Below, piece by piece: positions 44,395 through 51,647 of a stretch of 64,000 bases of DNA. A program made the translations under genes and the position numbers. The notes below the pieces were generated by a model. That model was not told the DNA's origin. It worked only from the letters and a program-made list of their open reading frames with translations, and ran no database searches. The stretch lies in the NCBI GenBank assembly GCA_945870425.1, contig CAMBSD010000001.1, positions 62,001 through 126,000 on the forward strand. The letters are read 5' to 3'. Source of the stretch: Chitinophaga pinensis (lineage in GTDB: Bacteria > Bacteroidota > Bacteroidia > UKL13-3). The number at the start of each line of letters is the position of its first letter. Within the stretch, counting starts at the first letter, position 1.

Positions 44395-44997
44395 TTAATG
44401 CATTCCCGCAAACTCGTATTTCTGACCAGCCTGAATTTCCAAATCTATAGTGTTTTCTTCAGGTGGAATAGGACAAGTGTACCTAGCAGAATAGGCACAA
44501 TAAGGATTGTATGCCAGATTAAAATCTATGATGGCCTTGTTGCCTTCAGGGATGGTGATATCGATGTATCGGCCACCACCATAGGTTTCGTTGCCATTGG
44601 TTTTGTCGACAAAAGGAATCAAAATAAACTTCTCGTAACCCATTTTTTTATTTACTGCTTCAAGCACAGTAAGTTTATAGGGCTTCTCGTTCAACTTAAA
44701 CTTAGCATATCCATATACTCGATAAGGTTTGGTTCTATCGTGGGAATGAGGTAAATCAAAAATAGGACTTTGATTTAGCTTTTCAATAGTGGCTTCGACC
44801 TTGTAGCTTTCATCAATCTCGAAAAACTTAAGTCCAGTGAATTTATCAAACAAATGGCTATCAAGCGGGGTAGTGCTTTTATTAAAAAACTCTTCGTTTT
44901 GCTTCATACGCTTAGAAGCAATTTCTTGTATATATTGTTGATTGCCTTCGCAGGAAATCAGTATCGAAAATAGAATGAGATAAATGTATTTCTTCAT
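44395..44997 (-). CDS. DUF1684 lipoprotein
   Basis: A 200-residue protein with a lipoprotein signal (IYLILFSILISC, Cys about 16). The mature part matches DUF1684: PYRVYGYAKFKLNEKPYKLTVLEAVN, FILIPFVDKTNGNETYGGGRYIDI and FNLAYNPYCAYSARYTCPIPPEENT, the last being the family's most conserved block. Function is unknown. The ATG at 44997 is chosen because it places the signal peptide at the N-terminus. It follows the Omp28-like gene after 108 bases containing a dispersed hairpin. Confidence 0.85.
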   Translation of the reverse strand: MKKYIYLILFSILISCEGNQQYIQEIASKRMKQNEEFFNKSTTPLDSHLFDKFTGLKFFEIDESYKVEATIEKLNQSPIFDLPHSHDRTKPYRVYGYAKFKLNEKPYKLTVLEAVNKKMGYEKFILIPFVDKTNGNETYGGGRYIDITIPEGNKAIIDFNLAYNPYCAYSARYTCPIPPEENTIDLEIQAGQKYEFAGMH

Positions 44998-45105: not shown

Positions 45106-46032
45106 TTAAAGCTTGATATATGTAGCTTTCACTTGTATCACATCCTTCTTAGTGGCATTGCCATGCACAAAAGCAATAACAGCAAGATTATCCGTGTTCC
45201 AGTTCCAGTTTTTCAATTCATCAGCTGTTGGCTTATAAATAAATCGTTTTCTAAAAACACGACCAGGTTCATACTTTGCTTTTAATAAATCACCATACAC
45301 ACCCGTTATTACTTTTCTTAATACATTATCATGTTGATAATCTTCAATGTAAATGGTACTTCCATTTTCATTCTTCTCTTGAATGTCGATGATTTTATTT
45401 TCAAGAATAGCCACTGTTAAAAGATATTGTGAATCAGGCATGGATTGGGTAAAAACCAATCTTAAATCTATGGACAATTCATTGCTCGAAGCATCATACT
45501 TAATACTAAGCGTGTCTATATTTACTGCTGAACTAGTTTGCGCAAGTTCAGTATTAGCATATCCAGACCATGATAAATCAGAGACTAGCCATTTGGTTTC
45601 ACCATTAAACAATTTGCGGTTGATAGAACCAGTAGGCAAACTGTTACTTGAGCCTAAATAAGTTAGCAAATCATCTGCATCTTTGGTTCTAAAATCTCGC
45701 TTGCTAACAAAAGGGGGCTTAAAAATTGGCTCAACAAGCGTTTTCAATGTGGCGTTCAATGGGTGATTGGCAATTGAAAACACCCTGCCCGAATAACTGC
45801 TCTTAAGTGCTTTTAGCGTCTCATGAGCCCTTGGGCAATTCACACATCCTACACCAGTAAAATCCTCAATCAGAATATTCTTGGTTTCGGCAGCAGGTAT
45901 GCTGGTAGTAATAAAAGTGGTATCAAGCACAGAGTTGGAAGGCTTGTAATTTATTAATGGTGGTGTCTCTTGGCATGCACTAAACAAAACCAATAAAGTA
46001 CTTATTGAAAAAAATATTTTTAGACTTTTCAT
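45106..46032 (-). CDS. Omp28-related lipoprotein with thioredoxin-like motif
   Basis: A 308-residue protein with a lipoprotein signal ending LLVLFSAC (Cys20). After a short linker, ILIEDFTGVGCVNCPRAHETLKAL carries a CVNC motif in a thioredoxin-like fold, as in Omp28-type outer membrane proteins of Bacteroidota. The second half is a beta-rich domain. Whether the CxxC pair is redox-active is not known. It begins four bases after the DUF6029 gene, so the two are surely in one operon. Confidence 0.8.
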   Translation of the reverse strand: MKSLKIFFSISTLLVLFSACQETPPLINYKPSNSVLDTTFITTSIPAAETKNILIEDFTGVGCVNCPRAHETLKALKSSYSGRVFSIANHPLNATLKTLVEPIFKPPFVSKRDFRTKDADDLLTYLGSSNSLPTGSINRKLFNGETKWLVSDLSWSGYANTELAQTSSAVNIDTLSIKYDASSNELSIDLRLVFTQSMPDSQYLLTVAILENKIIDIQEKNENGSTIYIEDYQHDNVLRKVITGVYGDLLKAKYEPGRVFRKRFIYKPTADELKNWNWNTDNLAVIAFVHGNATKKDVIQVKATYIKL

Positions 46033-46036
46033 ACGA

Positions 46037-47725
46037 TTAAAAATTAGTTGTTAATGTTACCCTAGCCCCACTAAATGCAGGTTCTACTCTACATACACCA
46101 CCTGTACAATTTACACCCTCTACTTGCTTAATATATCCTGCTGTAAAACGAGTCGGGCCAAATGTATACGCACCAAACACATTCCAATAATGCACTTGCT
46201 CAAAATTTGCAGCGTTGAGATAACCTTTGCTAATATTAAGCATATCACCTACACTAAAAGAGTAATGAGGCGCTACGTTAAACTCGATTAAAGCATTTAC
46301 AAAACTACCGAAATCTTGTTTGGTATCTAGGTATTGTGCTTCCATCCTTATTGATTTGGTTGGCGTTAGTTTATAAGTGGCTTCGCCAAAAAAACATTGC
46401 GCTAATACATAAGGAGTACCTTGCGCTTTATTTTCAAACAAGCGTTGGTTATAGTTGATGTTTTGGTAACCCAATAACATTTTAAATTTCTTGTTAAACT
46501 TATGCGATACATCAATGTAGTATTCGCGGAAATAACGGCTGGTATCGGCTTTAAAGTCTGCTAGGTTAAGAGCATTGCCATCAAAATTAAATGATTGAGG
46601 ACCTGTAACGACTGAGATATTTACATTCACAGTGGTCATATGCTTTTTGAAATAAGCTGTTTGAGGTTTATAACTCACCTCTAATTGTGCAGCATTTTCA
46701 CCCAACTCTTGTGCCACGGCATTGTATCGTGCTAATAACCTATAAGTGTTTTGACGGGTAATACTGGGAAGGTATGTGATTAAACCCAAGTTTTGAATTT
46801 CGAGTGGCGAGGTACGAAAAGAGAAAGATTCAATTTTTTTGAATTGAGTATTGATACCAATGCCTTTGGTTGAATAGGACAAACTTGCATAGTACACCCT
46901 TCCACTTAACAATTGCATTCTATCTAATTGCGAATTAAGAACTGCTTCAGGCGTTTTGTAACAATACTCAGTATATAAACTGATGCGTTTGTAGCTTAAT
47001 GTATTGTAAGCATTAAAAGCATACACATTATAAGTTGGATCAAAACGATTTTTCAAATCGTAATTATTAATGGCTGCTGCAATATTGGACATGGTAGTTT
47101 GATCGATGGTTCTATTAACTGCCGATGCACCCGCATCAAAACCTAGGCTTTCATTGGCTTGAAAATGCCTTTCAGCATTGATACCTTTTAGTACCTCTGG
47201 ACGAATATCGAATCGGTATTTTTGTCTGCCTGTAAATGCCATAATTTTCGTATCATTATTTGGGGTCCAAATGACTCTAGCCCCTTGAATAGCGTAATCA
47301 ATACCCAAGTTTCTATCTTCAAATGAACGGAAAATAGTTCCTGTACCAAATTGATCGTAGAATGAGCCAATGGTTACGTTCAGTTTATTAATGTTTTTGC
47401 TAATGTTCCAAAATCCCAATCCACTTGCTGTATAGGCCTCTTGAGGATTTAATAAAGGTGAATTGTTAAACAAATCATACCTCACATTGAAATTATATCC
47501 GCTGTATTTATAATTCAAAAACAACCAAGCATCAGTGGAGGATAATTCACTTTTATATTGTGTGGTAGTAGCACCAATTTTGTCATCCTTTACATAAAAC
47601 TGACTGGCGGTTTGAAAATTTCCCGACAATTCGCCTTTATCTTCTTTTTTGGGCTCATCATTCTGAGCAAAAACAAATACGGAACTAATGATTAATAAGC
47701 AAGTGAGTAGGTGTTTTGATCGCAT
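46037..47725 (-). CDS. DUF6029 outer membrane protein
   Basis: A 562-residue protein with a signal peptide ending SVFVFAQ. The body consists of many amphipathic beta strands with aromatic girdles (AWLFLNYKYSGYNFNVRYDLF, HYWNVFGAYTFGPTRFTAGY) and ends with a hydrophobic strand (GARVTLTTNF), so it is a predicted outer membrane barrel. It fits DUF6029, which often precedes an Omp28-like lipoprotein gene, as here. ATG 47725 is preferred to TTG 47731. Function unknown. Confidence 0.77.
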   Translation of the reverse strand: MRSKHLLTCLLIISSVFVFAQNDEPKKEDKGELSGNFQTASQFYVKDDKIGATTTQYKSELSSTDAWLFLNYKYSGYNFNVRYDLFNNSPLLNPQEAYTASGLGFWNISKNINKLNVTIGSFYDQFGTGTIFRSFEDRNLGIDYAIQGARVIWTPNNDTKIMAFTGRQKYRFDIRPEVLKGINAERHFQANESLGFDAGASAVNRTIDQTTMSNIAAAINNYDLKNRFDPTYNVYAFNAYNTLSYKRISLYTEYCYKTPEAVLNSQLDRMQLLSGRVYYASLSYSTKGIGINTQFKKIESFSFRTSPLEIQNLGLITYLPSITRQNTYRLLARYNAVAQELGENAAQLEVSYKPQTAYFKKHMTTVNVNISVVTGPQSFNFDGNALNLADFKADTSRYFREYYIDVSHKFNKKFKMLLGYQNINYNQRLFENKAQGTPYVLAQCFFGEATYKLTPTKSIRMEAQYLDTKQDFGSFVNALIEFNVAPHYSFSVGDMLNISKGYLNAANFEQVHYWNVFGAYTFGPTRFTAGYIKQVEGVNCTGGVCRVEPAFSGARVTLTTNF

Positions 47726-47782: not shown

Positions 47783-48133
47783 CTAATATCCCCCTGTAGG
47801 CAGGGCACCATAAACCCTCATTCCATCAACAAAATAGGCTGTTCCTGAAGGCTCAGCACCTCTGATACGCGGCACTTCATTGGCATAGGATTGGACACCT
47901 CCTACCAAATTAGCTATTCTGTTAACATTTCGTGTAGGTAAATTGATGAGTTGCCTTTTGCTGAAAGTATAACCATCAGTAGTTTGAATTACTTGGTTTA
48001 AATCCGTTCGTTTAAAACTGCTTAATATTTCTTGTTTAGCAGTTGTTTGTGTTGGCACCTCTGTTTGAGCTGAGACTCTTTTAAAGGCAAATAAAATTGC
48101 CACAACAAGGAAGGTTTTACATGCAGTTTTCAT
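47783..48133 (-). CDS. Free-standing TonB plug-like secreted protein
   Basis: A 116-residue protein with a signal peptide (ending about residue 23, RVSAQ). The rest resembles only the plug domain of TonB-dependent receptors: INLPTRNVNRIANLVGGVQ, then VPRIRGAEPSGTAYFVDGMRVYG, ending PTGGY. No barrel follows; the next gene is DUF6029, 57 bases on. It could be a relic of a receptor gene or a small protein built from a plug. The start at 48133 is preferred because the upstream codons overlap the TerB-like gene. Plug identity is by eye, not search. Confidence 0.6.
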   Translation of the reverse strand: MKTACKTFLVVAILFAFKRVSAQTEVPTQTTAKQEILSSFKRTDLNQVIQTTDGYTFSKRQLINLPTRNVNRIANLVGGVQSYANEVPRIRGAEPSGTAYFVDGMRVYGALPTGGY

Positions 48134-51022: not shown

Positions 51023-51364
51023 TTATAATTGGTTATATATTTTCTGCAAATCAGTATCCAATTGGTCTAGATTATTTTCAATGATTGTCCAAATTATTTG
51101 ATAATCAATACCCATATAATCATGTACAATCCTATTCCTAAAACCCCTTATTCGGAACCACTCTATTTGGGTGTGATTATCCTTAAAATTTTCAGGCAAT
51201 CTATTTGCTGCTTCGCCAATTACTTCAAAATTTCTAATTACGGCATCAATTGTTTTCGAGTCAGCAGTAAAGGTTTCAAAGGTATGAGATTGGGTATACA
51301 ATTTAATTTTGGCGATGGACTCTAAAATATCAGCAACAAGCAGTTTTGCATCTCTTTTAGACAT
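51023..51364 (-). CDS. hepT: HepT-like toxin (DUF86 family)
   Basis: A 113-residue helical protein with the HEPN-family motif Rx4HxY: R76 to Y83 (RNRIVHDY). In known HepT/MntA pairs the toxin is an RNase that its partner inactivates by adding AMP units to the tyrosine of this motif. It overlaps the 3' end of the antitoxin gene by eight bases on the same strand. The conserved residues are all present, so the toxin looks intact. Confidence 0.88.
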   Translation of the reverse strand: MSKRDAKLLVADILESIAKIKLYTQSHTFETFTADSKTIDAVIRNFEVIGEAANRLPENFKDNHTQIEWFRIRGFRNRIVHDYMGIDYQIIWTIIENNLDQLDTDLQKIYNQL

Positions 51365-51647
51365 AGCTTAATTCTTTTTCTATTTGTTGAAAATAAACTT
51401 TCTTTACTCCTTTTTTAGAGACCAAATCAACTTTGTGATTCAAAATATTTTCAAGTTCTTCGGCCAGGTCAATAAACTCAATCCCAATTGGCTTTGAGAA
51501 ATCAACTAAAATATCTATATCACTAAACTCTGATTGCTGACCACGACTATAACTGCCAAAAACAGCAATAAAACTCAGACCATATTTTTTTATGAGTCGA
51601 TTTTTATTTTCAAGTAGTTTCGCTTTTATATCTACCAAACTAGTCAT
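51357..51647 (-). CDS. mntA: MntA-like antitoxin nucleotidyltransferase
   Basis: A 96-residue minimal nucleotidyltransferase. The catalytic motif GSYSRG (31-36) is followed by SDIDILVDF (42-50) with the metal-binding aspartates. In known systems this protein AMPylates HepT and so neutralises it. It is the first gene of the pair, overlapping hepT, which is the standard order. Confidence 0.88.
   Translation of the reverse strand: MTSLVDIKAKLLENKNRLIKKYGLSFIAVFGSYSRGQQSEFSDIDILVDFSKPIGIEFIDLAEELENILNHKVDLVSKKGVKKVYFQQIEKELSYV

Follow-up and report, generated by a model that had tools for sequence, protein, structure and literature searches.

Plug domains are the stoppers of TonB-dependent receptors, and a small gene in the window, which is the whole stretch of 64,000 nucleotides analysed here, raises the question of what such a domain could do in a protein without a barrel. 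The gene (47783..48133, minus strand, ATG at 48133) was defined by its open reading frame and translation and encodes 116 amino acids, described in an earlier note as an exported protein with the plug motif only. The plug-only character was borne out, together with a start (about residues 1-22) which by eye is signal-peptide-like, but the description had to be narrowed to the N-terminal half of a plug: the Pfam Plug model (PF07715) was matched at 22.1 bits (E 2.2e-4; curated cut-off 23.9), with residues 56-109 covering model positions 11-69 of 107. The start is followed by a variable linker (about 23-50), the plug N-terminal half (about 51-108) and a short tail, the protein ending 13 residues past the invariant D of the plug motif (DG), with no C-terminal beta-barrel and no CarboxypepD_reg domain. 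Ahead of the plug, LNQVIQT resembles a TonB box by eye only, in a region which is not conserved in the half-plug family. A profile of 12 relatives, the window protein included, recovers this protein at 7e-41 and a 1269-aa receptor of its own genome, which is not a row of the profile, at 1.7e-22, so that the likeness to a plug exceeds chance. All 17 aligned copies of the conserved hairpin motif NEVPRIRGAEPSGTAYFVDGMRVYGAL (47801..47881, minus strand, or G000:C1:109801-109881), drawn from several protein types, share its T, A, Y, D, G and R. AlphaFold gave no confident fold (mean pLDDT 51 with 12 rows and 64 with 40; pTM 0.23 and 0.28), and a fold search of the PDB with this low-confidence model returned no match. 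Sequence searches of the PDB with the half-plug returned none either, the same searches barely detecting receptor plugs (the sole receptor found had an E of 0.95).

The gene lies in a row on one strand, the minus strand, in the order TerB, half-plug, DUF6029, Omp28 and DUF1684, with gaps of 20, 57, 4 and 108 bp. Pfam confirmed the neighbours first named for it, a TerB-like gene upstream (PF05099, 48154..48519) and, downstream, a DUF6029 protein (PF19494, 444.9 bits, 46037..47725) and an Omp28-like protein (PF11551, 45106..46032), and a DUF1684 gene (44395..44997) also belongs to the group, as the last of DUF6029-Omp28-DUF1684. Elsewhere in the window, adjoining frames at 51023-51647 resemble by eye a HEPN/MNT (DUF86 / nucleotidyltransferase) toxin-antitoxin pair.

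A gene of this kind could be the relic of a decaying receptor, since it is a truncated relative of one and broken copies occur in two genomes. This alternative is nevertheless highly improbable: no remnant of a lost barrel was found downstream, where the 57 bp before DUF6029 are too short for one, the start and the end of the protein are conserved, gene order is conserved in genus g3, and the half-plug orthologues are under purifying selection. In fact, among 20 pairs compared by the Nei-Gojobori method, five of them saturated at synonymous sites, dN/dS was 0.08-0.22 for most orthologue pairs measured (0.09 for G010/G021, 0.08 for G067/G072, 0.10-0.19 for six other genus g3 pairs, 0.19 and 0.22 for two G006/G034 pairs). 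The pair G000/G001, which includes the genome of the window (G000), gave 0.33 overall with zero replacements in the plug core, constraint is looser in the diverged g5 form (0.22 and 0.29), and paralogues inside G006 and inside G017 gave 0.41 and 0.55.

Moreover, the protein recurs. Searching with the 116-aa protein gave matches in 49 of 58 relatives, many in frames of 120-215 aa, and the 12-row profile matched in all 64 family genomes, mostly also through a receptor of about 1260 aa. Counting intact short frames, stand-alone half-plugs are present in 28 of the 64 genomes and in 10 of 14 genera: 21 have a signal peptide and the half-plug, four carry an added N-terminal domain (G006, G034, G076 and G078; CarboxypepD_reg in the one run through Pfam) and three are diverged (G005, G017, G027). 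Left out of this count were G058 (one stop and a second, diverged frame), G059 (two stops), G080 (a stop) and G030 (doubtful frames). The other 36 genomes have no copy counted intact, two of them (G058, G059) with decayed ones, so the half-plug is dispensable in places. Outside the family, nearly all matches shown from 247 genomes of the class sit in receptor-size frames; a 135-aa frame in G136 (L106) matches end to end, with no Pfam match. A scan of genome contigs gave one locus only. The half-plug is, then, a conserved and selected family of exported barrel-less half-plugs and not a broken gene. In one G006 protein (L041 5066-5668) a second motif, YYIDGVRV, stands ahead of the half-plug.

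It had further been proposed that this protein plugs or gates the DUF6029 barrel in trans, in a two-piece transporter. The two genes are adjacent in G000 and G001 and within 6 kb in G011 and G022 as well, that is, in four of the 12 half-plug genomes among the 58 relatives and in two genera, the remaining ones having DUF6029 on another contig or, in G029, 27 kb off. However, DUF6029 is present in 52 of the 58 relatives, most of which have no half-plug nearby, and 14 of 14 family DUF6029 loci (with 1.5-kb flanks) carry Omp28 and DUF1684 but the half-plug in two only, both of genus g1. The protein is, in addition, half a plug, lacking the C-terminal part. The search for plug-only proteins beside DUF6029 thus revealed no general pairing and no conserved gene pair of the kind that a two-piece transporter suggests; pairing as a rule was rejected, and the half-plug is unlikely to be a DUF6029 gate, trans-plugging of that barrel being scarcely credible on these counts.

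Linkage of another kind is more widespread, since in 16 of 21 half-plug genomes either an Omp28-like cargo gene or DUF6029 lies no more than 6 kb away, the other five (G007, G010, G015, G020, G082) having neither in view. The half-plug might accordingly be an accessory of an Omp28 or type IX cargo system, serving as lid, chaperone or carrier for an Omp28-like protein exported by the type IX secretion system (T9SS), or for DUF6029 plus Omp28. In 12 of the 21 it adjoins a cargo gene of about 700 aa whose Omp28-like product bears a T9SS sorting tail, and four genomes have DUF6029 within 6 kb. At 10 of 16 loci outside the family, DUF6029 has a cargo-like gene for a neighbour, and in all nine read the two are separated by a gene which by eye is thioredoxin-like. 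We consider this role doubtful, however, for cargo homologues occur in 31 of the 58 genomes, many without a half-plug, the genome of the window has none at E<=1e-30, and the Omp28 match of the cargo, 28.6 bits, is below the curated 34.9. In genus g3 the half-plug is flanked at all eight intact loci by a 475-aa gene, by eye fumarase/aspartase-like, on one side and by the cargo gene of about 700 aa on the other; most g3 loci reaching that far also have a gene nearby which by eye resembles dihydrolipoamide dehydrogenase. Simple arithmetic puts chance linkage to DUF6029, at a random place in a genome of about 3 Mb, at about 0.4% per genome. The linkage is above this level and extends to the Omp28-like cargo genes, so that an indirect role with the gene group is conceivable; the linkage could also be an inherited position. 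As a separate observation by eye, DUF6029 proteins end in a cysteine pair (CxGGVCR or alike; window 46037-47725, L051, L056) and their Omp28-like neighbours have a CVNC motif (window 45106-46032; L051, L056), the two together possibly forming a thiol system.

As regards origin, the nearest full-length relative is the TonB-dependent receptor of about 1260 aa, whose copy in the genome of the window (G000:C10, L109 4341-8141) is 44% identical to it over residues 52-114 of the window protein. In a tree of 71 columns including receptors of other families and barrel-less whole-plug proteins, the 21 half-plugs cluster together (85/89; 86% of bootstraps) next to the receptors of their own family; an earlier tree of about 70 columns, without the other-family receptors, had divided the stand-alone copies among three groups (three label changes). 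Counted from the D of DG, all 21 half-plugs lose their similarity to the receptor after 3-12 residues, whereas in all 32 receptors it extends to 67-69. In six of seven rows of half-plugs with an extra N-terminal domain the stop comes at 4-8; the seventh row is a second motif which continues into the half-plug of the same protein. Most likely, the half-plugs have a single origin within this bacterial family, in the N-terminal plug half of the receptor of about 1260 aa. Two other candidates were discarded. An orphan C-terminal half completing a receptor was rejected, as the matches of a C-half profile in G000 are two receptor-size frames of 1269 and 968 aa and no orphan was found there. G015, G082, G045 and G053 all have the ribosomal protein L21 gene close to the plug gene, which had hinted at descent from the barrel-less whole-plug family; this descent is not supported by the 71-column tree, the earlier one having split the copies in three. 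The L21 gene itself is found near plug-only genes in three families (L039 5752-6063, L093 5497-5808, L190 6564-7073, L191 8534-9001), at L190 called by sequence likeness only.

The receptor has a characteristic locus, in which it is followed by a protein of about 1260-1500 aa, a PorV/PorQ-family protein and then, by eye, greA-like and HIT-like genes. Receptor and next gene are together in 14 of 14 loci across the class (L194-L207) and the PorV-like gene is present in all 11 reaching far enough, three being called by NCBIfam (NF033709, above cut-off) and the rest by eye. The genome of the window keeps the order of receptor, middle protein and PorV-like gene (G000:C10, L109 4341-10999 and L208 1-4168); PorZ and a sorting domain were matched weakly in the middle protein.

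The same half-plug piece also occurs in A2M-like proteins (about 2050 aa; L024, L104, L120, L122, L123, L124, L131), in vWA/YfbK proteins and in a loop of MuiA, and this reuse in several unrelated envelope proteins indicates that it probably has a job of its own. The point past the D of DG at which similarity stops is less exact in these carriers (10-40 in A2M, with one at 67; 8 and 20 in vWA; 10, 11 and one at 63 in MuiA). It is conceivable, though in our estimate improbable, that the half-plug is a portable docking module of Bacteroidota envelopes, by which small exported, A2M-like, vWA/YfbK and MuiA carriers would bind a common partner of the PorV/PorQ-linked receptor and so be linked to type IX secretion or its energising machinery. 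The MuiA hairpin is present in three g13 genomes, degenerate in two of g2 and absent from the MuiA of the window's own genome, and the insert appears eroded in several genera, which argues against a strict need for docking in MuiA. The middle loop of MuiA (DUF4139) holds receptor-like segments consisting of the hairpin, CarboxypepD_reg or both (L100, L101, L103, L173, L171, L176). Over 68 codons, the own-genome receptor was the closest in protein for four of six A2M half-plugs (G061, G058, G029 and G033; not G016 and G003), these six being the copies with their own receptor at hand, but codon use was at background level, so that old copying and co-evolution are indistinguishable. Motif gene conversion between copies of one genome was rejected, since DNA identity over 20 codons was 0.633 within genomes (43 pairs) and 0.623 between them (2513 pairs), two copies lacking the anchor pattern (G026 L030, G002 L102) being left out.

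What, then, could half a plug do? That a selected free-standing form exists and that the same half is reused in unrelated envelope proteins means that it can act without the barrel, and the half-plug directs attention to a partner, as well as to a receptor whose gene adjoins type IX secretion genes throughout the class. The best overall explanation, offered tentatively and at somewhat less than even confidence, is that a piece of the plug of the receptor of about 1260 aa became a small soluble periplasmic adaptor or competitor which binds a partner, often together with an Omp28-type system. Freed from the barrel, the half-plug would work as a small soluble protein, presumably in the periplasm, that binds a partner; the GTAYFVDGMRV hairpin would be its docking surface for the usual contact of that face of the receptor plug; once docked it would act as adaptor or competitor, and in many genomes it would do so together with the Omp28-type envelope system. 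We infer docking as the leading reading of its role, and likewise the partner and the periplasmic location, from the module, its recurrence, its selection, its relation to the receptor and its linkage, all of which were observed. A regulatory role, with the half-plug sensing and signalling the state of the envelope or of a receptor as in cell-surface signalling, is brought to mind by barrel-less proteins of seven other families (CarboxypepD_reg plus a whole plug; 241-301 aa; seven loci, L187-L193, two of them run through Pfam), four of the seven loci having an ECF sigma factor and a TPR protein alongside. It is an unlikely role, nonetheless: these proteins group apart from the half-plugs in the tree, the window protein has no CarboxypepD_reg, and no sigma factor caught the eye among the genes listed around half-plugs, few of which were run through Pfam.

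Comparison with known systems drew on passages of PMC10994853, PMC12611786, PMC12618676 and PMC12635249. In the titles and beginnings of abstracts of the literature searched there is no description of a barrel-less half-plug, and within that search the word DUF6029 is absent from the papers found for DUF6029/Omp28. PMC10994853 describes, for the T9SS translocon of Flavobacterium johnsoniae (SprA), a separate Plug protein which seals the barrel in trans; that Plug and the half-plug are both separate proteins, while the half-plug had no sequence match in the PDB, in searches which were weak. With the plugs of PF07715 receptors the half-plug shares the N-terminal half with its IRG...DG hairpin, whereas it is without the C-terminal plug half, the barrel and CarboxypepD_reg; the receptor of about 1260 aa, unlike the half-plug, has CarboxypepD_reg, a whole plug and a barrel (Pfam-supported in L196). 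The whole-plug barrel-less proteins of other Bacteroidia families are, like the half-plug, exported plugs without a barrel, but they possess the whole plug and an extra N-terminal domain, stand on a separate branch and are in part accompanied by ECF sigma factors.
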